The notes under the pieces: generated by a model
Seen by the model: only the letters and a program-made list of their open reading frames with translations
What the model was told of the DNA's origin: nothing
Database searches by the model: none
Source of the DNA: Burkholderiales bacterium
Lineage (GTDB): Bacteria; Pseudomonadota; Gammaproteobacteria; Burkholderiales; Burkholderiaceae_D
Length of the DNA: 10,949 nucleotides
Reading direction: 5' to 3'
NCBI GenBank assembly: GCA_016197345.1
Contig: JACPVY010000035.1
Span: forward strand, 1 to 10,949
Shown: positions 1,377 to 10,949 of the stretch, piece after piece
How positions within the stretch are numbered: position 1 is the stretch's first letter
How the letters are laid out: every line of letters begins with the position of its first letter
Program-made: the position numbers and the translations under genes

Positions 1377-1419
1377 GGGGACACATCAACTGCGAGGCAG
1401 TGCTATGTCCCTATTTTTT
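1377..1419 (+). terminator. Rho-independent terminator of the TPR/Sel1 gene, built on a GGGACA/TGTCCC inverted repeat
   Basis: GGGACA (1378-1383) pairs with TGTCCC (1406-1411). Nested inside, ACTGC (1390-1394) pairs with GCAGT (1397-1401). A run of six T follows at 1414-1419. It begins 9 bp after the TPR gene stop and its T-tract overlaps the 3' end of the convergent regulator gene. The outer stem sequence recurs near 4596 and 5896. Confidence 0.75.
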
Positions 1420-2928
1420 GATAGCGCGCTCAATCACTTGCGCCAGCTTAGCAAACGCTGGCGCAATTTCTTCTTCTGGCACATAGGCATAACCGAGCAT
1501 CAAGCCGCGTTGACGCTTTGCTAGCGGCGTGCTGTTCAAATAATAGCCCGATAGCGGTCGGGCGATGATGCCACTGGCCAGCGCTTGCTGCGATAGCGCA
1601 ACGTCATCGCAATCGTCTGGCAGCCTTAGCGCTAAGTGCAAACCCGCTTCGGCACCGCTAATCGAAAAACGCGTGCCAAAATGCCGCTGAATTTCTTGCT
1701 GCAAGCGCAAACGCCGTTCGCTATACAACTGGCGCATGCGCCGCACATGTGAAGCGAAATGGCCTTCGACCATGAAGTCAGTCAACACCGCTTGCGTGAA
1801 TAAATGGCCACCGCGATATAGTTCAGAGAGCGCGGTCGCAAAAATATCGGCCAGCGCGGGCGGCACGACTAAAAAACCGGTGCGCAAACCGGGGAATAAG
1901 GTCTTGCTAAACGTCCCCATGTAGAGCACACGCTGAGCGCTATCCATCCCCTGTAGCGAAGCCAGCGGCCTGCCGCCAAAGCGAAATTCGCTATCGTAAT
2001 CATCTTCCACCACACACGCGCTATTGTCTTGAGCGTATTGCACCAATTGCCGCCGCCGCGCTAGGCTCATCGTCACCCCGGTCGGATATTGGTGGGACGG
2101 CGTGACAAAAATCAACTTCGGCGCTCCAGCGGCTGGCATGTCCAATTGCGCGCTGAAATTCATGCCTTCATCATCGACGGGGATAGGCACGGTTTCCATA
2201 TCGAGCGCATGCAAGACGCTACGCGTGCCCCAATAGCCGGGATCTTCGACCCAGGCTTTTTCTTTCGCATCACCGAGCAATTTGGCGATCAAATCTATCG
2301 ATTGATGGATGCCATTCGTGATCAAGACATTTTCGGCGCTGCAATTGACCGAGCGCGCTAAGCGCAGATATTCGGCAATCGCGCTCCTGAGCGGCAAATA
2401 GCCACCGGCTTGGCTATAGGTCAGCAAATCTATCCGCCCACGTCGCCATACTTTGTTGTGTAAGCGGCTCCAGATTTTGTAGGGAAAATGACTGACGTCG
2501 GGTACGCCCGGCATGAACGCCCCCCATTGCTGTTCACTGACGCCGACCTGCGCCATCAAATGCCGCCCACGCTGCGATAAGCCTACCTGTTCACTCGCGA
2601 GCGCATCCGGCAATGGCTTTTTGTTGTCAATTTGCGGGCTGGTGCTCGGTGCGGTATCGGCAATGAAACTACCGGAGCCGGGACGGGTTTCGATATAGCC
2701 TTCGGCAATCAATTGCTCGTAAGCGAACATCACCGTGTTGCGCGATAGGCCCAGCTCACGCGCTAATTCGCGCGAGGATGGCAATTGCATGCCTACGGGT
2801 AGCACTTGCTGCAAAATTGCCTGCCTGATCACCTGATACAATTGCCGATTCATTGGCAAGTTCGGGCGGGTCGCCTCAGAATGATTCTCGCTGGCGGGCG
2901 CTTGACGCGGCAAGGCTAGCCGTTGCAT
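1411..2928 (-). CDS. MocR/GabR-family PLP-dependent transcriptional regulator (GntR HTH fused to aminotransferase-like domain)
   Basis: Counting from the ATG at 2928 (505 aa), residues ~28-90 are a GntR winged helix, with LPSSRELARELGLSRNTV followed by GYIETRPGSGSF. After a linker, residues ~135-505 match a class I aminotransferase fold. PLP-site residues are kept: D309 and Y311 in VEDDYDSEF, and K342 in GTFSKTLFPGLR. The D309-K342 distance of 33 equals that in B. subtilis GabR (D279/K312), so internal-aldimine formation is expected. Family members bind DNA and sense PLP or GABA-PLP adducts. It is divergent from the gabD-like gene, which it probably controls; that target is inferred. The start is uncertain. 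The frame is open up to GTG 3030, but a TATAAT box at 2998-2993 argues for a start downstream of it. TTG 2958 would add PLTDFLMQRL, which resembles family N-termini. Neither candidate start has a clear Shine-Dalgarno sequence. Confidence 0.93.
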   Translation of the reverse strand: MQRLALPRQAPASENHSEATRPNLPMNRQLYQVIRQAILQQVLPVGMQLPSSRELARELGLSRNTVMFAYEQLIAEGYIETRPGSGSFIADTAPSTSPQIDNKKPLPDALASEQVGLSQRGRHLMAQVGVSEQQWGAFMPGVPDVSHFPYKIWSRLHNKVWRRGRIDLLTYSQAGGYLPLRSAIAEYLRLARSVNCSAENVLITNGIHQSIDLIAKLLGDAKEKAWVEDPGYWGTRSVLHALDMETVPIPVDDEGMNFSAQLDMPAAGAPKLIFVTPSHQYPTGVTMSLARRRQLVQYAQDNSACVVEDDYDSEFRFGGRPLASLQGMDSAQRVLYMGTFSKTLFPGLRTGFLVVPPALADIFATALSELYRGGHLFTQAVLTDFMVEGHFASHVRRMRQLYSERRLRLQQEIQRHFGTRFSISGAEAGLHLALRLPDDCDDVALSQQALASGIIARPLSGYYLNSTPLAKRQRGLMLGYAYVPEEEIAPAFAKLAQVIERAIKK

Positions 2929-2992
2929 TAAAAAGTCGGTGAGAGGGGATGGATGCAAAGTGGCACCATTAAAAAATTCAAATTGGTTCTTT

Positions 2993-2998
2993 ATTATA
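2993..2998 (-). promoter_or_regulatory. -10 box (TATAAT) of the MocR-type regulator gene
   Basis: The minus strand reads TATAAT, a perfect sigma-70 -10 hexamer. No good -35 hexamer is seen 16-18 bp upstream. Transcription would start near 2986, which makes the GTG at 3030 an unlikely translation start. Confidence 0.5.
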
Positions 2999-3040
2999 GG
3001 GCCAGCACAGCATAAGATCATCCTAATCACAATGTGTTAA

Positions 3041-3059
3041 TATATTTAGATTATATCTA
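3041..3059 (+). promoter_or_regulatory. gabD promoter region with a perfect 13-bp palindrome (candidate MocR-type operator)
   Basis: TATATT at 3041-3046 is a possible -10 element without a recognisable -35, as expected for an activator-dependent promoter. Immediately after it, TAGAT-TAT-ATCTA (3047-3059) is a perfect inverted repeat centred at 3053. A related AGATCAT lies at 3015-3021, about three helical turns (33 bp) from AGATTAT at 3048-3054. GabR-type regulators bind in such divergent regions. The operator assignment is inference. Confidence 0.4.
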
Positions 3060-3078
3060 TCCGCAAAATCACAACCTC

Positions 3079-3083
3079 AGGAG
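3079..3083 (+). promoter_or_regulatory. Ribosome binding site of the gabD-like gene
   Basis: AGGAG lies 5 bases upstream of ATG 3089 (spacer AACAC). It is the strongest Shine-Dalgarno sequence in front of any of the confidently called genes here and fixes the dehydrogenase start. Confidence 0.8.
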
Positions 3084-3088
3084 AACAC

Positions 3089-4543
3089 ATGCTGCAATTA
3101 AAAGACCCTAGCTTGCTGCGCCAACAAGCGTATATCAATGGCACTTGGTGTGATGCCGACGATGGCAAGACCTTGGTGGTGACCAATCCCGCCACCAGCG
3201 AACAAATCGGCACCATCGCTTACATGGGTGCGAACGAGGCGAAACGCGCGATTGACGCGGCGAATGCAGCATGGCCAGCATGGCGTAAAAAAACCTCGAA
3301 AGAGCGCGCAGCGATTTTGCGCAAATGGCATGACTTGATGATGGCCAATCTGGATGATTTGGGCTTGATCATGACTTCCGAACAAGGCAAGCCGCTGCCA
3401 GAAGCAAAAGGTGAAGTCGCTTTTGCTGCCTCGTTTTTGGAGTGGTTTGGCGAAGAAGCGAAACGGATTTGCGGCGATGTGATGCAATCGCCTTGGGCTG
3501 ATAAGCGTAGCGTGATTTTGAAAGAACCGATTGGCGTGTGCGCTGCGATTACGCCGTGGAATTTCCCCGCCGCGATGATTACGCGTAAAGTCGGCCCAGC
3601 GCTTGCTGCTGGTTGCACGATTGTCGTTCGCCCTGCCGATTTGACACCTTATTCTGCACTCGCGCTAGCCGTATTGGCCGAACGCGCTGGCGTGCCACCG
3701 GGCGTGTTTAGCGTCATCACTGGTGCTTCGCGCGCAATTGGCGGCGAATTTACCTCCAATCCTATCGTGCGCAAATTGACGTTTACTGGCTCGACCGAAG
3801 TCGGCCGCGTCTTGATGCAACAATGCGCCCCAACCATCAAAAAACTCTCGCTCGAACTCGGCGGCAACGCACCATTCATCGTATTTGATGATGCTGATTT
3901 GGATGCGGCAGTCGAAGGCGCGTTGATCTCCAAATATCGCAATGCGGGACAGACCTGCGTTTGCGCCAATCGTATCTATGTGCAAGATGGTGTGTATGAC
4001 GCCTTCGCCGAAAAATTCGCGAAAGCAGTGGCACGTTTAAAAGTCGGCAATGGCGTCGAAGAAGGTGTCACCCAAGGCCCATTGATCGACGACAAAGCGG
4101 TGCAAAAAGTGGAAGAACATATCGCCGATGCGCTCGCTAAAGGTGGTCGTCTGCTCGCCGGTGGTAAGCGCCACGCGTTAGGCCATAGCTTCTTTGAGCC
4201 AACCATTATTGCCGATGTGACCTCGGACATGCGCGTCGCTAGCGAAGAAACTTTCGGCCCCTTAGCACCGCTATTCCGCTTCAAAACTGATGAAGAAGTA
4301 TTGGCGATGGCAAACGACACCGAGTTGGGCCTCGCTAGCTATTTCTATTCACGCGACATCGGCCGCGTTTGGCGCATCGCCGAAGGTTTGGAAAGCGGCA
4401 TGGTCGGCGTCAATACGGGTTTGATCTCAAATGAAATCGCACCGTTTGGCGGCATCAAACAATCTGGTTTGGGTCGTGAAGGCTCGAAATACGGGATTGA
4501 AGACTATTTGGAAATCAAATATGTCTGCATGGGTGGGATGTGA
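3089..4543 (+). CDS. gabD: Succinate-semialdehyde dehydrogenase, GabD-type NAD(P)+-dependent aldehyde dehydrogenase
   Basis: The 484-residue product has the normal GabD length and oxidises succinate semialdehyde to succinate, the last step of GABA degradation, in the cytoplasm. Visible aldehyde dehydrogenase motifs are TPWNFP with N158 (oxyanion hole), FTGSTEVGR (230s, cofactor-binding glycine turn), LELGGNAPF with general base E256, and NAGQTCVCANR with catalytic C290. One oddity is that the KPA motif, whose lysine contacts the cofactor ribose (K179 in E. coli GabD by my alignment), reads RPA here (R181), a conservative change. The gene starts behind a good AGGAG. It is divergent from a GabR-like regulator, so induction by GABA or PLP status is plausible. 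No aminotransferase (gabT) lies in the window, so the semialdehyde source is not shown. A related semialdehyde dehydrogenase such as glutarate-semialdehyde dehydrogenase cannot be excluded. Confidence 0.92.
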   Translation: MLQLKDPSLLRQQAYINGTWCDADDGKTLVVTNPATSEQIGTIAYMGANEAKRAIDAANAAWPAWRKKTSKERAAILRKWHDLMMANLDDLGLIMTSEQGKPLPEAKGEVAFAASFLEWFGEEAKRICGDVMQSPWADKRSVILKEPIGVCAAITPWNFPAAMITRKVGPALAAGCTIVVRPADLTPYSALALAVLAERAGVPPGVFSVITGASRAIGGEFTSNPIVRKLTFTGSTEVGRVLMQQCAPTIKKLSLELGGNAPFIVFDDADLDAAVEGALISKYRNAGQTCVCANRIYVQDGVYDAFAEKFAKAVARLKVGNGVEEGVTQGPLIDDKAVQKVEEHIADALAKGGRLLAGGKRHALGHSFFEPTIIADVTSDMRVASEETFGPLAPLFRFKTDEEVLAMANDTELGLASYFYSRDIGRVWRIAEGLESGMVGVNTGLISNEIAPFGGIKQSGLGREGSKYGIEDYLEIKYVCMGGM

Positions 4544-4636: not shown

Positions 4637-5461
4637 TTATGATACTTTCTGCCCACTCGCTACGCGACGACGCGCAATCGCACCCAACACCGCTAAGCCA
4701 GACAACATCATGGCGTAAGTTTCTGGTTCAGGCACAGCAGGAACATTCGGCCCGAACGCATTGCCGTAATCCTGCGCAGAAATTGAATTATGGATATTGA
4801 TCTGACCATAGGAGTTGTACGCGCTACGGTTGACATAGCTCAGAGCAAAGTCGGATTCGTAATATTCCTCATTGCTACCGTAGTAACTCGTTGCGGCCTG
4901 ACCATAAGCTGAGACTTTGCTATTACCACTTTGACTGCTGAGAGTGATATCGGTGCCACTGCTCGCGCTATTCATCCAACTATAACCACTGCCAGTACTG
5001 ATCGCGGAACCTGCGAGTGTGCCAGTAAAAACCAGCTTGGTATGTGGGCTAAGCACGAACGAGCCGCTCAAGCGCTGATCGGCTGAAATCACGCCGTAGG
5101 TCGTGTCCGCCATATTGCCATTGGCAAATAAGACATTCCCCATCATACCGCTGCCGACCTTACTGCTACCATCATCGCTACTTGCTGAGCTTTGAAAATT
5201 TTTCCAGCTGTGCACGGTACGGCTGGCCGAACCATTGGTGGACTCGCCGTCAACTGACACACTCAGGCTGACACTAGACTGCCCTGTCATGTCATAAAAC
5301 TGAATAGTCGGGCTAATGCCATCGCTGGCATCGAGATCTAGCAAGGTATAGCTCAAGTCTGTGATGCCAGCAGTAGCTGTTTTTGCCGCCATTGCATTGT
5401 TACTGAAAATTGCCAAAGAAACAGACAAAGTAAGCATGCTTACGGTAGAAATTAGTTTCAT
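4637..5461 (-). CDS. PEP-CTERM sorting-domain exported protein
   Basis: The ATG at 5461 gives 274 residues beginning MKLISTVSMLTLSVSLAIFS, a standard Sec signal peptide with likely cleavage after AMA (residue 25). The frame is open to 5554, but that start would put ~31 unlikely residues before the signal peptide. The mature part is rich in Ser, Gly, Thr and Asn, without a recognised domain, and is probably beta-rich. The C-terminus carries a textbook PEP-CTERM signal: VPEPETYAM (243-251), a hydrophobic stretch to ~262, and RRR (264-266). Such proteins are anchored, cleaved and sorted by exosortase and are linked to extracellular polysaccharide and biofilm in Gram-negative bacteria. The exosortase locus must be elsewhere. 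There is no strong Shine-Dalgarno sequence (only AGAAAG). The specific role is unknown. Confidence 0.88.
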   Translation of the reverse strand: MKLISTVSMLTLSVSLAIFSNNAMAAKTATAGITDLSYTLLDLDASDGISPTIQFYDMTGQSSVSLSVSVDGESTNGSASRTVHSWKNFQSSASSDDGSSKVGSGMMGNVLFANGNMADTTYGVISADQRLSGSFVLSPHTKLVFTGTLAGSAISTGSGYSWMNSASSGTDITLSSQSGNSKVSAYGQAATSYYGSNEEYYESDFALSYVNRSAYNSYGQINIHNSISAQDYGNAFGPNVPAVPEPETYAMMLSGLAVLGAIARRRVASGQKVS

Positions 5462-5895
5462 ATGCGCTTTCTGATAAATGGAGGTAAAAAGACATTGTGT
5501 GTAGTTTATTTTTTCAGTTACTACTTTTTGTCTTGGATTTCCGGCCGCCATCAAAGCAGGACGCTAGAGTAATCTACATTTTTCGAATTGAACAGATACA
5601 GTTAGGGACTTTCTGATGCAGAACAGATTTCACAATTTCCATACTTAAAGTTTCCAACAGCAAACCTTTCTCATCGCCATCATTGTAACTTTTAATAAAT
5701 ACCAAATGACACATTTTACCGAGCGGAGTTTGCCGGGTTGAGAGGATCAAGGAAAGAAGGAATGGATGGATGGTGGCACTAGCACCCGCCCCTGTGCTTT
5801 ACCTGCTCTTGGAAAAGGTTTCGCGCTGATGTGCAGGCGGAAAAAAGGTGGTGGTTGGCGGGTGGCAGCGCAGCGGTCGCATTGCATCGGAAATA
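5462..5895. other. Intergenic region upstream of the PEP-CTERM gene, no gene recognised
   Basis: It should hold the minus-strand promoter of the PEP-CTERM gene, but I see no convincing -35/-10 pair and no sigma-54 GG-N10-GC pair. On the plus strand AGAAGG (5755-5760) sits 5 bases before ATG 5766, which opens a 94-codon frame to 6050. Its Arg/Gly/Cys-rich product looks fortuitous and runs through the inverted repeat at 5896, so I do not call it. A minor ATG at 5762 opens only M-D-G-W-W-H before a stop. Confidence 0.4.
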
Positions 5896-5924: not shown

Positions 5925-6351
5925 ACTACATTTGGCGAGTTAGCAAATACTGCCGCCTATGCTTTTTCCCGTTTTCAAATCGAAGCCAAAGGAGCAAGAA
6001 TATTCACCTTTTTCACTTCGTTGACAGGAAATTTTTTCACCGTCTTATAGCACAACCAACGCTGTACAAGCTTATCAAGCGAACGGCAACTTGCTGTATA
6101 CGGTGACGCTAACCGGTGGCGCCACGGATGCCTTTTCACTCGCGGCGACGGGTTTAGAAATTTTTGGCTGGCACGTGCAAACCGCCTATGGTCAACACCA
6201 ACTTGCCCACAATGGCACGGTAGGTGATTTCAGCACCGATTATCACTGGCATTATCGAGCCAAGTTGGCCGATATAATCCAGCCCGGCGCCGTCCCGGCG
6301 CCAAAATCCGCGGCGGGACGGATGCGCATTTTCTCTCAACACCCGCTGTGA
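5925..6351 (+). pseudogene. Possible frameshifted remnant of a secreted or PEP-CTERM-like protein gene
   Basis: Two overlapping plus-strand frames look protein-like and appear to continue each other. The first ends at 6050 with NTAAYAFSRFQIEAKGA followed by LTGNFF. The second, open from about 6025, reads ENFFTSYSTTNAVQAYQANG, then LLYTVTLTGGATDAFSLAAT and on to a stop at 6351. A single indel near 6035-6050 (next to the T-run at 6033-6038) would join them. The beta-strand-like, Thr/Ala/Gly-rich composition resembles exported PEP-CTERM-type proteins, and an AVPAP sequence occurs near the end without a hydrophobic anchor. No start, signal peptide or Shine-Dalgarno sequence can be assigned. Function is unrecognised, and chance open frames remain possible. 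Confidence 0.3.
6290..6321. repeat. 8-bp GC-rich inverted repeat
   Basis: CCGTCCCG (6290-6297) and CGGGACGG (6314-6321) are perfect inverted arms separated by 16 nt. It could form a hairpin near the end of the decayed frame. No T-tract follows, so a terminator role is unsupported. Confidence 0.35.
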
Positions 6352-6442
6352 TTTTGCGCTGACGTTTTATCAACTGACCATGTTCCATTCCCTGTAACAG
6401 GTATTCGAATGCACATTTCAACATCCACAAGCATCCTACCTG

Positions 6443-6460
6443 CCATATTGTGAAATATGG
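6443..6460. promoter_or_regulatory. 18-bp palindrome upstream of the TonB-like gene
   Basis: CCATATT (6443-6449) and AATATGG (6454-6460) are perfect inverted arms around GTGA. It lies ~115 bp before the ATG at 6575. AT-rich palindromes of this size are often operators for dimeric repressors, but no partner regulator is suggested by the neighbourhood and no clear promoter hexamers are visible. Confidence 0.3.
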
Positions 6461-6574
6461 GACACTTCCAGCTGATGAAAACGACGCTGTTTGCAAGCAA
6501 GTGCAACAATCAAAGCGTGCATAGCCAGCTACCTTTAGCATGCGCAGAGTTTTTCCTTAATTTGCCAAAGCGCT

Positions 6575-7255
6575 ATGCACAACTCTCGCCGTCTGATCTT
6601 GCTTGTGCTTGTTTCAAGCTTGCTCCATATTGCGGCTTTGCTGTGGTTGAATCTCACGCCGCAGCGTGTCGCCATGAATGCGAGTGCACCCTCGTTGCAG
6701 GTGCGCTTGCAGCTAGCGGCCGCACCTGAACCTGTGGCCCCAGTTGTCGCGCTGCCGACGCCCGCACATATCGCGCCGAGCGCCAGCGCGCCTAAGCAGA
6801 CCACACCGCATATATCCGCCCCCACGCAGCCAACGCGCGCCACACCAAACATCATCAGCCGCTTACCCAGCCAAGCTGCGCCTGCGTCATCCTTTAGCGT
6901 TAGCACCGACAACAGCGCAGATATACCAACGCGCGATACTAGCGACAAACCATTAGACCTCGCCGATATACGCAAAAATTGCATAGGCAAAATCGACCGT
7001 GATTTACGCGGCGAAGATAAATTAGCGCGCCCAAATACGATCGCGGCGCTCGCTAATAAGGCCGAAAGCGGCCACCAACTGGAACGCGCAATTGCTGCTG
7101 CCGGTATTCAACGCGAGATAAAGATACAAGAATTAGTCGCCGCCGATGGCCGCCGCTATAGCAAATTCACCAGCGCAGCGGGTACCTATTGCATGTGGCC
7201 GAAAACACAAAGCGATACTGGCACAAAAGACTCTCTGATCACGAATTGCCCATAA
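6575..7255 (+). CDS. Inner-membrane-anchored, proline-rich periplasmic protein with TonB-like N-terminus; function unknown
   Basis: The 226-residue product starts MHNSRRLILLVLVSSLLHIA: a short basic N-tail and one hydrophobic helix (~7-27), followed by a Pro/Ala/Thr/Ser-rich stretch (~38-110). This is the design of TonB and TolA-type spanning proteins, with the body in the periplasm. The C-terminal ~95 residues (from DLADIRKNCIGKIDRDLRG) do not show the TonB C-terminal pattern. They hold three cysteines (in KNCIG, TYCMW and the near-terminal TNCP), so a disulphide-stabilised domain is possible. I do not recognise a family. Translation starts at ATG 6575 without a clear Shine-Dalgarno sequence. 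The gene lies in the same direction as the lipoprotein-kinase operon, but 152 bp with a hairpin and operator-like repeats intervene, so it is probably a separate unit. Confidence 0.75.
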   Translation: MHNSRRLILLVLVSSLLHIAALLWLNLTPQRVAMNASAPSLQVRLQLAAAPEPVAPVVALPTPAHIAPSASAPKQTTPHISAPTQPTRATPNIISRLPSQAAPASSFSVSTDNSADIPTRDTSDKPLDLADIRKNCIGKIDRDLRGEDKLARPNTIAALANKAESGHQLERAIAAAGIQREIKIQELVAADGRRYSKFTSAAGTYCMWPKTQSDTGTKDSLITNCP

Positions 7256-7270
7256 TTTCCCGTAAGCAAC

Positions 7271-7285
7271 GCCACCATTGGTGGC
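7271..7285 (+). terminator. Short hairpin after the TonB-like gene
   Basis: GCCACC (7271-7276) pairs with GGTGGC (7280-7285) around ATT, 16 bp past the stop. No T-tract follows, so it is a weak terminator candidate at best. It abuts the direct repeats at 7289. Confidence 0.35.
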
Positions 7286-7288
7286 TCG

Positions 7289-7319
7289 CTTCATTCCCGT
7301 TTTTGCCGTCTTCATTCCC
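7289..7319 (+). promoter_or_regulatory. Candidate LytTR-type operator: two exact 10-bp direct repeats with an 11-bp spacer
   Basis: CTTCATTCCC occurs at 7289-7298 and again at 7310-7319, a repeat period of 21 bp, so both copies face the same side of the helix. LytTR response regulators bind pairs of ~9-10 bp direct repeats separated by about 11-13 bp; E. coli YpdB uses GGCATTTCAT-N11-GGCATTTCAT. The site lies 89 bp upstream of the first gene of an operon that encodes a LytTR-type regulator, which suggests autoregulation. A degenerate further element (GCATTCGTCCC) is at 7329-7339, and TTGCAT at 7354-7359 could be a -35. Confidence 0.55.
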
Positions 7320-7398
7320 TCGTTTCGGGCATTCGTCCCTTTCCGCTCCACAGTTGCATCAAGCTCCGGTATCGTGCTAGCACTACATCTACTGTGTT

Positions 7399-7402
7399 GA
7401 GG
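7399..7402 (+). promoter_or_regulatory. Ribosome binding site of the lipoprotein gene
   Basis: GAGG at 7399-7402 lies 5 bases before ATG 7408 (spacer TTGTC). It selects this start, which is also the one giving a lipoprotein signal peptide. Confidence 0.6.
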
Positions 7403-7407
7403 TTGTC

Positions 7408-8670
7408 ATGCTTGCCAAATGTCGTCAAATTTCCATGTTGTGTGCTGTCAGCGCGGCGTCGCTGGTTGTCAATGCTTGCGGTGGCTGCACGATACTCAAT
7501 CAGCGTACGGAAATCACCACAAGCGCAGCCAGCCTCGGCCCAGCACGTTTCCAAGCCCCTTTTTCGACAGCAGAACAAGGGTTCAAAGTCACCAGTTTGC
7601 CTGCCACCAGCACCCTCGCTAGCGAAGCCGCACAATTGGGCAGCCGTAGCCATAAAATTGATCACACAGTGCAAGCACTTTTGCGTCAACACAATATCCC
7701 CGGCGCCGCCGTGGCTGTGCTGCAAAATGGGCGCGTCAGCTATGTCAAAGCATTTGGCTACGCCGATCTGGAACATGGGCGGGCACTACAGGCCGAACAG
7801 CGTTTTATGCTGGGAAATGCTAGCCATCAATTCGTGGCAGCAGCCGTGTTATTGCTAGTGCAAGATGGCAAAATCACCCTCGATGAAAAAATCGGTCGCT
7901 ATCTAGGGGAGGTGCCGAATAGCTGGCGCAACATCACCGTGCGCCAATTGCTGACCAATACTGGCGGTTTTGGGCCGCAACAACCAGATCGCTTCGCCTA
8001 CTATCAGCGCGATCATTTGACTGGCAAAAACAATGACGAAAAACTCGCCGTATTGGAATCGTTCCCGCTAGCGAGCAAACCGGGACGGCATTTCATCGAA
8101 AGCCAATTGGGCTATGACGCGTTGGGCTTCATCGTCGCCAAAGTGAGTGGCAAAACGTATATCGATTTTGTCCAACAACGTATATTTCAACCGCTGGGCA
8201 TGCACTCGGCACGCTTAGTGCAAGCAGGCGCCAATGATGCGCAAGCGGTTACGGGATATTTAGCGAAAGATGGCTTGGATTATGCAGTGCGCTACCACGC
8301 GAATACGCTTGCGCATGCCTCGCTAGCTGCCACCAATATCGAGATGAATGTGCTCGACATGGCGAAATGGGATCTGGCCTTGAATAGCAATCAAGTCTTG
8401 AACGCTGAAAGCCGGGCGCAAATGTGGCAGGCACAGGTGGCGAACGAAGAAACCCAGCACGCCTATGGCTTTGGCTGGAGCGTACAACACAAGGCCGGCA
8501 CGACGCAATTATCACAAACTGGTTTGCTGCAGTCCTCCACGGCCGATTATCGTCGCTATCCCGAAGCACAGTTGTCTGTCATCATCTTCACCAACAAGGC
8601 AGATAACGGCGATTCAACCAGCTTAGCCCCAGCCATCACACGTATTGTGCAGCCTAAGCTCGCCGTATAA
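7408..8670 (+). CDS. Lipoprotein with class C beta-lactamase/PBP-type serine hydrolase fold, apparently catalytically dead
   Basis: The 420 residues begin with a lipoprotein signal peptide and a plausible lipobox VNAC (C24), so the protein should be membrane-anchored on the periplasmic side. Residues ~83-400 follow the serine beta-lactamase family closely: NIPGAAVAVLQNGRVSYVKAFGYAD, AAAVLLLVQDGKITLDEKIG, ITVRQLLTNTGG, GYDALGFIVAKVSGK, PLGMHSA, and RRYPEAQLSVIIFTN. The active-site motifs are replaced. SxxK (usual GSxTKQF) reads GNASHQF, with N137 for Ser and H140 for Lys. YSN reads ESQ (231-233). HTSG reads NTGG (184-187). The late HxG reads QTG (370-372). An intact fold with all these motifs changed suggests a ligand-binding pseudoenzyme rather than a pseudogene. 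It is the first gene of an operon with a LytS kinase starting 20 bp downstream, which suggests a sensing role (inference). Confidence 0.88.
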   Translation: MLAKCRQISMLCAVSAASLVVNACGGCTILNQRTEITTSAASLGPARFQAPFSTAEQGFKVTSLPATSTLASEAAQLGSRSHKIDHTVQALLRQHNIPGAAVAVLQNGRVSYVKAFGYADLEHGRALQAEQRFMLGNASHQFVAAAVLLLVQDGKITLDEKIGRYLGEVPNSWRNITVRQLLTNTGGFGPQQPDRFAYYQRDHLTGKNNDEKLAVLESFPLASKPGRHFIESQLGYDALGFIVAKVSGKTYIDFVQQRIFQPLGMHSARLVQAGANDAQAVTGYLAKDGLDYAVRYHANTLAHASLAATNIEMNVLDMAKWDLALNSNQVLNAESRAQMWQAQVANEETQHAYGFGWSVQHKAGTTQLSQTGLLQSSTADYRRYPEAQLSVIIFTNKADNGDSTSLAPAITRIVQPKLAV

Positions 8671-8690
8671 TAAAGGTCTCCCACGACAAC

Positions 8691-9725
8691 ATGTTTGTGA
8701 TGACCCCGACCCGCTTACCATCGTTGTGGGCGTTGAAGATGGGGCGGCCAGAAAGTTGGCTGCAAGTCGTGCTCCTGCTGGGATTTTATTATCTGTGTGG
8801 CGTGCTGGTATATGGCGCTTTGCTCTGGTTTGATCCATGGTTCAGCCGCCGCTGCAATCGTCATCTGGTTTCGCGCATCGTCTTTGGCCAATTGCTACTC
8901 TTGAGTGAAATCCTGATGCTGACCTATCTGCTGTATTTACAACTTTTTCCCTTCCTTTTTGGGCGTCAAGCCAATTCACTGGGCTTATGGGTCATCTTCT
9001 ATCAGGCAACGATGGCTAGTTTTTTAGTGTATGGCTGGTTACTCGTTGTACGCACCAACCAAAACAACCGACAACAAGCACTACGCTTGCATGTCGAAAC
9101 CGAAGCTCTGGCCACCTCCCTGCATCGCACCGAATTAGCACTGCTAGAAGCGCAAATCGAACCCCATTTTTTATTCAATACGCTGGCCTTGATCAAACGC
9201 CAATATCGCCACGATACCGAAGCGGCGGATAAGGTGATGCTAGCCTTACTGCATTATTTAGAGCGAGCCGGGCCAGCACTCAGGCAAGCTGATTGGAATC
9301 TCGCGCAAGAACTCGATTTGGTGGCGCGCTATCTGGATATCTTGCAGCATCGCTTTGGCGAGCGCTTGCGCTATCAGATTACACAGGCCGAGGGTAGCGG
9401 TCAGGCGAAGATTCCTGCCCTAGTGTTAGCAACCTTGGTCGAAAATGCGGTGCGCCACGGCATTACGCCAAAAGCGGAAGGCGGCACCATTACGATCACC
9501 ACCCACCTCGCCCATAAAATCTTACACATCACCATTTGTGATGACGGTGTCGGTCTACGCCAGACATCTGGCAATGGCTTAGGGCTATCGACCGTCCGCG
9601 CGCGCCTGCGTAGCGCTTACTCTGACGCGGCCAACGTATTGGTGGAACCGAATGTTCCCTGCGGCGTGCGGGTCAGCATCACTTTGCCTTGGAAAACTGA
9701 AAACCATGTCGAACGTATTGCATAA
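8691..9725 (+). CDS. LytS/YpdA-type sensor histidine kinase (His_kinase plus HATPase_c)
   Basis: The 344-residue protein has three or four hydrophobic segments (~23-46, ~62-88, ~98-121), a short coiled linker (~125-150), then the LytS-family His_kinase domain. The phosphoacceptor is H159 in EAQIEPHFLFNTL. The ATPase domain is complete, with an N-box at ENAVRHG (251-257), DDGVG (284-288) and GNGLGLSTVRARL (294-306). It should autophosphorylate and pass phosphate to the response regulator encoded two genes downstream. There is no extracytoplasmic sensor domain, so input may come through the membrane helices or a partner such as the upstream lipoprotein. The gene starts 20 bp after the lipoprotein stop. 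ATG 8691 is chosen, with in-frame GTG 8697 and ATG 8700 possible. AAAGG is 14 bases away, so coupling to upstream translation is likely. Confidence 0.92.
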   Translation: MFVMTPTRLPSLWALKMGRPESWLQVVLLLGFYYLCGVLVYGALLWFDPWFSRRCNRHLVSRIVFGQLLLLSEILMLTYLLYLQLFPFLFGRQANSLGLWVIFYQATMASFLVYGWLLVVRTNQNNRQQALRLHVETEALATSLHRTELALLEAQIEPHFLFNTLALIKRQYRHDTEAADKVMLALLHYLERAGPALRQADWNLAQELDLVARYLDILQHRFGERLRYQITQAEGSGQAKIPALVLATLVENAVRHGITPKAEGGTITITTHLAHKILHITICDDGVGLRQTSGNGLGLSTVRARLRSAYSDAANVLVEPNVPCGVRVSITLPWKTENHVERIA

Positions 9726-10488
9726 GCTTTGGCAGCGGCTACGGCCTCGCTTGGCGCATCATTGGCAAGCGCAACTTGCCTTTCTGGCCGTTGGCGCAAC
9801 CAATAGCATGGTCTTGATGCGTTTGCCATTCTGGATCGACATGATTGAAAGCAATAGCTGGGCAACCATCACGATGACCACGCTTTGGCAATTATTTATC
9901 GGTCTCTTGACTGGTGCCGTGATGCTGTTGATTTTTCACACCTTTGTTGAAGATGGCGCAACCATCGTCAATCAACCACGGCGCTTTTTGTTAGTACTGG
10001 CACCAGCTTCCTTGGCTGGCAGCACGATCAGCGTCGTCGGGCCAGATATGATGTGGCCCGGCCATGTCCCCTTCCAGGTTCGACCAATTGATTTGCTGGC
10101 CTCTTGGATGGAAATCATGCTGTGGGGCGGCATCTTAATCTGGTTGTATTGCCTGTATTTGCAAAAACAGCGCGACCAATTGCAATTCACCACCCTGCTA
10201 GGCAAGCGCGCTATTCTCGCGCGGCAATTGGCGAACTCAGAATTATTGGCCGCCCGCGCACAAATTGATCCGCAATTGCTGACACGCATTTTGCGCATCG
10301 TTCACTCGCACCATAGCCATGCGCCGGAAGCCGCGAATGCACTACTTGATCAACTGATTGCCTATCTGCGGATGGCGATGAATCGCAAACGCGAAAACGA
10401 TCCTTCGCGCTCACTGCAACACACGATGGACGAAGCCATGCAAACCATGTTGGCCAGCCTGCATCAATTAGAAAGCCAAACACCATGA
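9706..10488 (+). CDS. Membrane protein with degenerate LytS-type dimerisation domain, no ATPase domain (pseudokinase-like)
   Basis: ATG 9706 gives 260 residues and overlaps the kinase gene by 20 bp; TTG 9652 would add 18 residues in the overlap and is less likely. Four hydrophobic segments are visible (~23-43, ~56-80, ~94-112, ~128-152). Residues 176-245 align with the LytS His_kinase domain of the gene before it: LLAARAQIDPQLLTRIL matches LLEAQIEPHFLFNTL, and ANALLDQLIAYLRMAM matches the ADKVMLALLHYLERAG helix. The phosphoacceptor His is Q190, and the F and N that follow are also changed. The protein stops cleanly after the second helix, with no N-box, G-box or HATPase remnant. It cannot be a functional kinase alone. 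A heterodimer partner or modulator of the real kinase is the likely role (inference). Its TGA overlaps the ATG of the response regulator. Confidence 0.87.
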   Translation: MSNVLHKLWQRLRPRLAHHWQAQLAFLAVGATNSMVLMRLPFWIDMIESNSWATITMTTLWQLFIGLLTGAVMLLIFHTFVEDGATIVNQPRRFLLVLAPASLAGSTISVVGPDMMWPGHVPFQVRPIDLLASWMEIMLWGGILIWLYCLYLQKQRDQLQFTTLLGKRAILARQLANSELLAARAQIDPQLLTRILRIVHSHHSHAPEAANALLDQLIAYLRMAMNRKRENDPSRSLQHTMDEAMQTMLASLHQLESQTP

Positions 10489-10949
10489 CCACCGCCCTGA
10501 TCGTTGAAGATGAACCTTTTTTAGCGAGCGAATTAGCCGAGCTATTGCAAAGCCTGTGGCCAGAATTGACGTTAGCACCGCCCGCGAATAACGGTTTGCA
10601 GGCGCTGCAATACATTTTCCAACACAAGCCCGACATCGCTTTTTTGGATATCCAAATCCCCGACCCTAATGGTTTGGAAGTGGCGCGGATTGTGCGCGAC
10701 ACCTGCCATATCGTGTTTGTCACCGCTTACGATCAACATGCGATAGAAGCGTTTGAAAAAGGCGCGATTGATTATTTGTTGAAACCGATCAGCCGTGAGC
10801 GCTTACAACTGACCGTGCAAAGACTGCAACAACGCATCACCAGCCCGGCACCTGATTTGGCCCAGATGCTGCCCAGCGCACCCGCCGTACCGCAACAAGG
10901 GCGCTATCTACGCTGGATCACCGCCACCATTGGCCAATCGCTGCGTTTG
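10485..10949 (+). CDS. LytTR-type response regulator, 3' end outside the window
   Basis: The gene starts at ATG 10485, overlapping the preceding stop (ATGA), and runs open to the window end (155 codons). Residues 1-~115 are a complete receiver domain: acidic pair E8/D9, phosphoacceptor D55 in IAFLDIQIPDPNGLEVA, T80 in VFVTAYD, and K100 before P101. A Pro/Ala-rich linker (~120-138) leads into RYLRWITATIGQSLRL, which matches the opening strands of a LytTR DNA-binding domain as in AlgR/YpdB-type regulators. The rest of that domain is cut off. It should be phosphorylated by the LytS-type kinase two genes upstream and bind paired direct repeats such as those at 7289-7319. The overlapping start and lack of a clear Shine-Dalgarno sequence imply translational coupling. 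Confidence 0.92.
   Translation, partial: MTTALIVEDEPFLASELAELLQSLWPELTLAPPANNGLQALQYIFQHKPDIAFLDIQIPDPNGLEVARIVRDTCHIVFVTAYDQHAIEAFEKGAIDYLLKPISRERLQLTVQRLQQRITSPAPDLAQMLPSAPAVPQQGRYLRWITATIGQSLRL

Follow-up and report, generated by a model that had tools for sequence, protein, structure and literature searches.

A LytS-type kinase, pseudokinase and response regulator module with an envelope lipoprotein gene in bacteria related to Massilia

In this study, we analysed a stretch of 10,949 nucleotides from a Burkholderiales bacterium (hereafter the window; the complete contig JACPVY010000035.1 of assembly GCA_016197345.1, C110 of genome G000 in our numbering), at whose end four genes encode a lipoprotein (open reading frame ORF1), a LytS-type histidine kinase (HK; ORF2), a kinase-like protein without catalytic features (pseudokinase; ORF3) and a response regulator (ORF4). 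The HK, pseudokinase and regulator genes are a conserved module, which was found in a few bacteria related to Massilia. Our reading of the window, to which we would give a probability of about 0.55, is that the four genes constitute an autoregulated LytS/LytTR operon, the pseudokinase being a dedicated partner of the HK and the lipoprotein an envelope component. A first-pass annotation of the same DNA had proposed a signalling module of these four components with the lipoprotein as a dead enzyme; the three-gene module stood up to comparison with other genomes, whereas the dead-enzyme lipoprotein did not do so as a trait of the module.

Conservation of gene order

A search of 392 genomes of the window's family, limited for each profile to the five best first-look candidates of a genome, matched the pseudokinase profile in seven genomes, that of the window included, at E<=1e-15. 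The HK profile separated the same seven genomes, the lowest of which scored 322.9 bits and the next genome 234.0 bits. In all seven loci (the window, L036, L037, L038, L039, L052 and L053) the genes follow in the order HK, pseudokinase, regulator. That the window merely holds an ordinary LytS/LytTR pair, with the lipoprotein and pseudokinase linked to it by coincidence, is very improbable: PF00144 proteins, the family of the lipoprotein, are common and the distribution of the module is sparse (7/392), but the constant order and the agreement of both profiles contradict coincidence for the pseudokinase, the reading frames overlap, and a repeat array described below recurs 5' of the lipoprotein gene. 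The window genes lie on one strand as first described, with a gap of 20 bp between ORF1 and ORF2, an overlap of 20 bp between ORF2 and ORF3 and a 4-bp ATGA overlap between ORF3 and ORF4 (Table 1).

Co-conservation in the gene neighbourhood, which had been named as the check on the first-pass annotation, therefore extends to the pseudokinase with the HK and regulator in seven of seven loci and to the lipoprotein in part only. A PF00144 lipoprotein gene is next 5' of the HK gene in three loci, namely the window, L036 (8985-10196) and L053, where it was read in pieces. Two others have a candidate short lipoprotein with a lipobox-like N-terminus in that place (69 aa in L038, 65 aa in L039), and 3 of 300 shuffles attained the similarity found between these two short ORFs. 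L038 also encodes a different PF00144 protein (95 bits), on the same strand as the regulator and 3' of it (6162-7373, minus strand); it was rejected as the lipoprotein counterpart, having 22% identity over 185 residues. Within the genus of genome G093, four of 17 genomes carry the pseudokinase.

Protein searches widened this picture. Among 5.8 billion sequences, at least nine members of the pseudokinase family were found, ORF3 included, a number that is a lower bound because the protein search missed those of L036-L039, which the genome search had detected. Four of eight lipoprotein homologues share the exact size of their longest contig with a listed HK homologue, as do three of eight pseudokinase homologues (three of the four on contigs >2 kb), the comparison covering 119 of the 132 non-self HK homologues. 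With random sizes, four or more lipoprotein matches arose in 0 of 10,000 trials. These shared contig sizes suggest further cases in which a lipoprotein or pseudokinase gene is linked to an HK gene, gene order being unread there. A scan of genome contigs with the single pseudokinase sequence gave nothing; a scan with the alignment gave five loci, of which L040-L042 hold the module and L043 and L044 were set aside as ordinary EPHF kinases.

Table 1. Coordinates of the operon and of related features in the window
Feature	Position	Strand	Description
Lipoprotein (ORF1)	7408-8670	+	ATG start, 420 aa, PF00144 204 bits
HK (ORF2)	8691-9725	+	ATG start, LytS-type, PF06580 and PF02518
Pseudokinase (ORF3)	9706-10488	+	ATG start, 260 aa, DHp-like hairpin
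Regulator (ORF4)	10485-10949 (contig end)	+	ATG start, receiver domain, D55
Putative LytTR operator	7290-7340	+	TTCATTCCC / TTCATTCCC / TTCGTCCCT, 21-bp period
Short stretch like lipoprotein residues 355-393	6163-6279	+	38% identity, E = 5e-4

An intact kinase and a partner without catalytic residues

ORF2 matches PF06580 (62.8 bits) and PF02518 (36.9 bits) above cut-off and has the motifs of a LytS-type HK intact: H159 in the phosphoacceptor context IEPHFL, the N-box ENAVRHG, and the G-boxes DDGVG and GLGL. It had been described as a kinase without a sensor domain of its own, which agrees with our finding that neither GAF nor 5TMR_LYT was matched in Pfam at E<=1; by the same result, ORF2 lacks what defines a receptor of the BtsS/YpdA type. 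ORF2 has three hydrophobic stretches above cut-off and each of four relatives examined has three or four; the topology is perhaps AlgZ/FimS-like. ORF4 has a PF00072 receiver (72.2 bits), the only part visible because the gene is cut at position 10949 by the contig end. Its proposed identity as a LytTR regulator holds directly for the receiver, and the LytTR domain, which would lie beyond the contig end, is expected from two relatives, both of which, when scanned, matched PF04397 (82.8 and 82.9 bits). The truncated receiver scored best to the BtsR model, at 116.5 bits against a cut-off of 246.

For ORF3, the single Pfam match was to PF06580 and was below cut-off (20.5 of 25.2 bits). The acceptor histidine is replaced by Gln190 (IDPQLL, vs IEPHFL in the HK) and no HATPase domain (PF02518) was matched at E<=1; ORF3 is thus indeed the kinase-like partner without catalysis that it had been taken for. 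No match to PF02518 was found at E<=0.1 in any of five kinase-like partners, one from a more distant locus (in G766, below) and the other four from the module, and the C-terminal part that longer pseudokinases have is without a HATPase match. Mean column identity over 13 aligned sequences of the family is 39%. At the acceptor position, each of the 13 has Q, E, A or D, and no histidine is invariant. Twelve of the 16 invariant residues fall within 159-230, so that the part resembling a dimerization and histidine phosphotransfer (DHp) domain is the best conserved, which suggests that a contact surface has been retained.

An AlphaFold model of ORF3, built from 13 sequences, had a mean predicted local distance difference test (pLDDT) value of 80.9, with block values of 56 to 76 across residues 181-260, except for 66-70 towards the end. 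The predicted structure is all helical, with four membrane-length helices (vs two stretches in the window ORF3 by hydropathy alone), the fourth of which extends as a single long helix and is followed by shorter helices at the DHp match. A Foldseek search with the model gave nothing at E<=0.001.

Kinase-like partners without the histidine also occur beyond the module. An order-wide search matched seven of 399 genomes, the window's own and six weakly (E 1e-16 to 1e-19); in five of those six, the fetched stretch held only an EPHF kinase, and two genomes fetched as possible outliers (G042 and G303) had one LytS kinase each. In the sixth, G766, from another Burkholderiales family, an EPHF kinase is followed by a separate EPQF kinase-like protein (AQVEPQF) and then a regulator (L127, 3113-5535, minus strand). 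In G288, from the window's family, an intact and a His-less LytS kinase (ARIEPALL) are fused in a 748-aa protein that is followed by a regulator (L090, 5540-7786, minus strand). The LytTR parts of these two regulators were judged by eye. Overall, 8 of 63 LytS loci scanned (six distinct operons among the eight) have a second DHp domain, and the histidine is absent from it in all eight; 8/63 is not an unbiased frequency since the loci were fetched via HK or pseudokinase searches.

Loss of catalytic residues from the lipoprotein

The N-terminus of ORF1 is lipobox-like and ends at Cys24, in keeping with its description as a lipoprotein; the fold, as assigned by sequence, is that of the PF00144 serine hydrolases and beta-lactamases, with a match that spans 328 residues, and not that of a periplasmic binding protein, as the earlier term "periplasmic binding-type" would imply. 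By sequence comparison, its relatives in the Protein Data Bank reach a best E of 1.8e-21. In PF00144 enzymes, the motifs SxxK, YxN and HxG are catalytic. All three, which a class C beta-lactamase or DD-peptidase would carry, are altered in ORF1: the catalytic positions read N137, H140, E231, Q233 and Q370, within NASH, ESQ and QTG. The class C beta-lactamase model scores ORF1 at 79.3 bits, below its cut-off of 415.

We aligned ORF1 with ten relatives, comprising all eight non-self matches at E<=1e-60 and two proteins of L036; the protein search scored just the 7995 candidates with most words in common. SxxK and YSN are kept in ten of ten relatives and HxG in nine, the tenth (P0014) ending before it. 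Of 52 columns identical in these homologues, ORF1 retains 42, and the ten it has lost include all five catalytic ones (S137, K140, Y231, N233 and H370), for which the hypergeometric p is about 1e-4 if losses were random. In leave-one-out controls, the number of such columns lost ranged from 0 to 6 among the ten relatives, and no catalytic column was among them. Judged from these alignments, ORF1 looks like a pseudoenzyme that keeps most constraints of the fold, and among the sequences compared it is one only in the window genome. The earlier designation as a dead enzyme therefore appears right for ORF1 and fails as a property of the module, as the L036 lipoprotein keeps all catalytic motifs; in that of L053, SxxK and YSN are intact and the third motif is unreadable in a broken frame.

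A stretch of 39 residues in a frame without an ORF of the lipoprotein family (6163-6279) resembles ORF1 weakly, with E = 5e-4 to ORF1 and just 0.23 and 2.8 to the two L036 homologues; its sequence is possibly the remnant of a second, decayed lipoprotein copy. Such a remnant would fit an explanation in which the locus degenerates and both the pseudokinase gene and that of the dead lipoprotein are in decay, as would the broken pseudokinase frame of L052 and the absence of the C-terminal domain from the pseudokinases of the window, L036 and several homologues. We nevertheless consider decay improbable, because none of the 13 aligned pseudokinases, which come from several genera, has the histidine and the DHp part is their most conserved region, the frames of the window are open, and the losses from the lipoprotein are concentrated on catalytic residues.

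A lipoprotein-family search of 116 genomes of the family gave 13 matches in eight genomes. In one of these loci (L095; G009:C787), two matches are in tandem (571-1581 and 2082-3032) with no module genes nearby. The Massilia sp. CF038 contig that carries the L036 operon also has a second intact PF00144 lipoprotein paralogue (16041-17243, minus strand), adjoining a pair of ORFs (13214-15989) that by eye resembles a two-component system.

A repeat array ahead of the lipoprotein gene

The operator-like repeat that had been reported 5' of the four genes was found as direct repeats of 9 nt, separated by 12-nt spacers, at 7290, 7311 and 7332, the array beginning 118 bp 5' of the lipoprotein ATG. With up to three mismatches, the pair pattern had 2 matches vs 0.01 expected. 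The window triple scores 24/27, which was reached by 0 of 200 shuffles and is partly circular because the consensus was derived from the window. The triples of L038 and L053 are independent tests: each has 24/27 matches to TTCATTCCC, reached by 0 of 200 shuffles, with spacings of 21 and 21 in L038 and of 21 and 22 in L053. L039 has two repeats (TTCATTCCG and TTCGTCCCT), with a score not above that of shuffles. From the start of the array to the ATG of the next ORF the distance is 118 bp in the window, 129 bp in L038, 163 bp in L039 and 131 bp in L053.

In the window's own genome, the pair pattern at <=2 mismatches occurs once, at the array, and in G237 its best match is the lipoprotein promoter, with one mismatch. 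Across the seven genomes searched for the operator, 31 of 35 listed places had three mismatches or were near chance, control patterns having 0 or 1 match per genome and strand; no regulon can be named since most matches are at three mismatches. Passages of a published account of LytTR sites give their usual layout as repeats of 9-11 nt with a spacer of 11-13 nt (PMC4847170), and the window array has that layout, the comparison being one of layout alone. A search of 7150-8750 for promoters and terminators found none above the shuffled mean.

The recurrence of the triple ahead of the lipoprotein gene suggests autoregulation, and the position of the array makes it probable that the unit starts with the lipoprotein gene. 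The same position bears on the strongest alternative, that the lipoprotein is a mere output of the LytTR regulator with no part in sensing, and that the signalling core is the HK, pseudokinase and regulator. There is a precedent in lrgAB, a target of LytSR. In addition, the type of lipoprotein varies among loci while the core of three genes is constant. The residue at +2 after the lipobox Cys governs lipoprotein sorting, and the Gly found there in ORF1 suggests the outer membrane, distant from the HK. However, the window enzyme is dead and yet keeps 42 of the 52 invariant positions, which a binding role explains more easily. We regard the output explanation as a real possibility, if somewhat short of an even chance.

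Several results weigh against the four-gene autoregulated operon. No lipoprotein was seen 5' of the HK in L037 and L052, and the short lipoproteins of L038 and L039 have no hydrophobic stretch above cut-off, with a poor lipobox in L038; these two ORFs end 175 bp (L038) and 240 bp (L039) from the HK gene, gaps that make co-transcription uncertain. No array above chance was found in L036 (127/200 shuffles), L037 (181/200), L039 (155/200) or L052 (30/200). Within the window's genus, the second genome sampled (G001) is without the pseudokinase. Protein searches gave 133 HK homologues at E<=1e-50 vs at least nine pseudokinase homologues, so some HKs of the subfamily may lack a pseudokinase. Apart from those of the window and L036, the lipoprotein matches (six genomes) had no HK, pseudokinase or regulator in their ~1.5-kb flanks, which indicates that this lipoprotein type also occurs outside the module. 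Lastly, the window's genome assembly is 68% complete in 675 contigs, and frames are broken in L052 and L053.

Proposed mechanism and relation to known systems

The mechanism that we infer for the autoregulated operon, with its heterodimer, its feedback, a role for the lipoprotein and a signal, would proceed as follows. The intact HK would autophosphorylate and then phosphorylate the LytTR regulator. The pseudokinase would pair with the HK via membrane and DHp contacts, and may set the balance of its kinase and phosphatase activities or provide signal input. The phosphorylated regulator would bind the array of 21-bp period and drive the operon, including the lipoprotein. The latter would be the envelope-side component, apparently an active PF00144 hydrolase in relatives, and in the window a putative pseudoenzyme retained for binding of a ligand or partner. 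The signal might be beta-lactam or cell-envelope stress, as the first-pass annotation had guessed. In a more far-reaching version, which we consider doubtful, the LytS receptor would function only as a heteromer in which an active HK is joined by a pseudokinase without acceptor histidine and ATPase domain, and it would be coupled to an envelope lipoprotein whose beta-lactamase/DD-peptidase-fold enzyme has become a receptor. The whole would be a complete envelope-sensing pathway, of a kind for which we found no description in the LytS/LytTR family, with more pseudokinase partners elsewhere in the Burkholderiales.

Few LytS-class kinases have a known signal, and AlgR of Pseudomonas carries a LytTR domain. 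Compared by description, the AlgZ/AlgR (FimS/AlgR) system has a LytS-class HK with an N-terminal membrane part, as here, and passages of its account give AlgZ four predicted transmembrane helices, describe it as without G1, F and G2 boxes, unlike the HK here with its DDGVG and GLGL, and mention no pseudokinase, whereas one is present here (PMC4064291). The AlgR core site, as given in such published passages, is CCGTTCGTC and differs from TTCATTCCC. BtsS/BtsR and YpdA/YpdB of E. coli likewise pair a LytS-type HK with a LytTR regulator. In excerpts of the literature, BtsS carries 5TMR_LYT and GAF (PMC10653868), neither of which was found in the HK here, and the site of YpdB consists of GGCATTTCAT as a direct repeat (PMC4847170).

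A precedent for the partner model is ChrS/HrrS of Corynebacterium glutamicum, in which a dead HK heterodimerises with an active one; that pseudokinase is a product of laboratory evolution and derives from a paralogous system, unlike the natural operon partner here (PMC9491836). Among the titles and abstract starts listed for open-licence PMC papers, none describes a LytS/LytTR system partnered by a pseudokinase or lipoprotein, an absence that is weak evidence. Rcs (RcsF lipoprotein, RcsC, RcsD and RcsB), DivL/CckA and RetS/GacS have a lipoprotein input, a kinase-like partner without kinase activity of its own, or both. We note the likeness to these three without claiming homology, and RcsD has a histidine phosphotransfer (HPt) domain whereas the pseudokinase family here has no invariant histidine.

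A natural operon with an active and a dead LytS kinase represents a clean genetic system for the tuning of a kinase by a pseudokinase. In addition, relatives appear to carry the lipoprotein as an enzyme and the window as a pseudoenzyme, so that a hydrolase which may have become a sensor can be compared before and after the change.

Other features of the window

No Rfam family was matched. The window also encodes a succinate-semialdehyde dehydrogenase (844.9 bits) with a divergent MocR/PdxR-type regulator (PdxR model 444 bits, above cut-off) in 1411-4543, and a PEP-CTERM protein (4637-5554, minus strand) for which the nearest model, of the FxDxF family, scored 43.3 bits (under the cut-off of 50). 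A Pro/Ala-rich ORF of 226 aa (6575-7255, plus strand), with no family above cut-off and a start that is hydrophobic by eye, ends shortly 5' of the repeat array.

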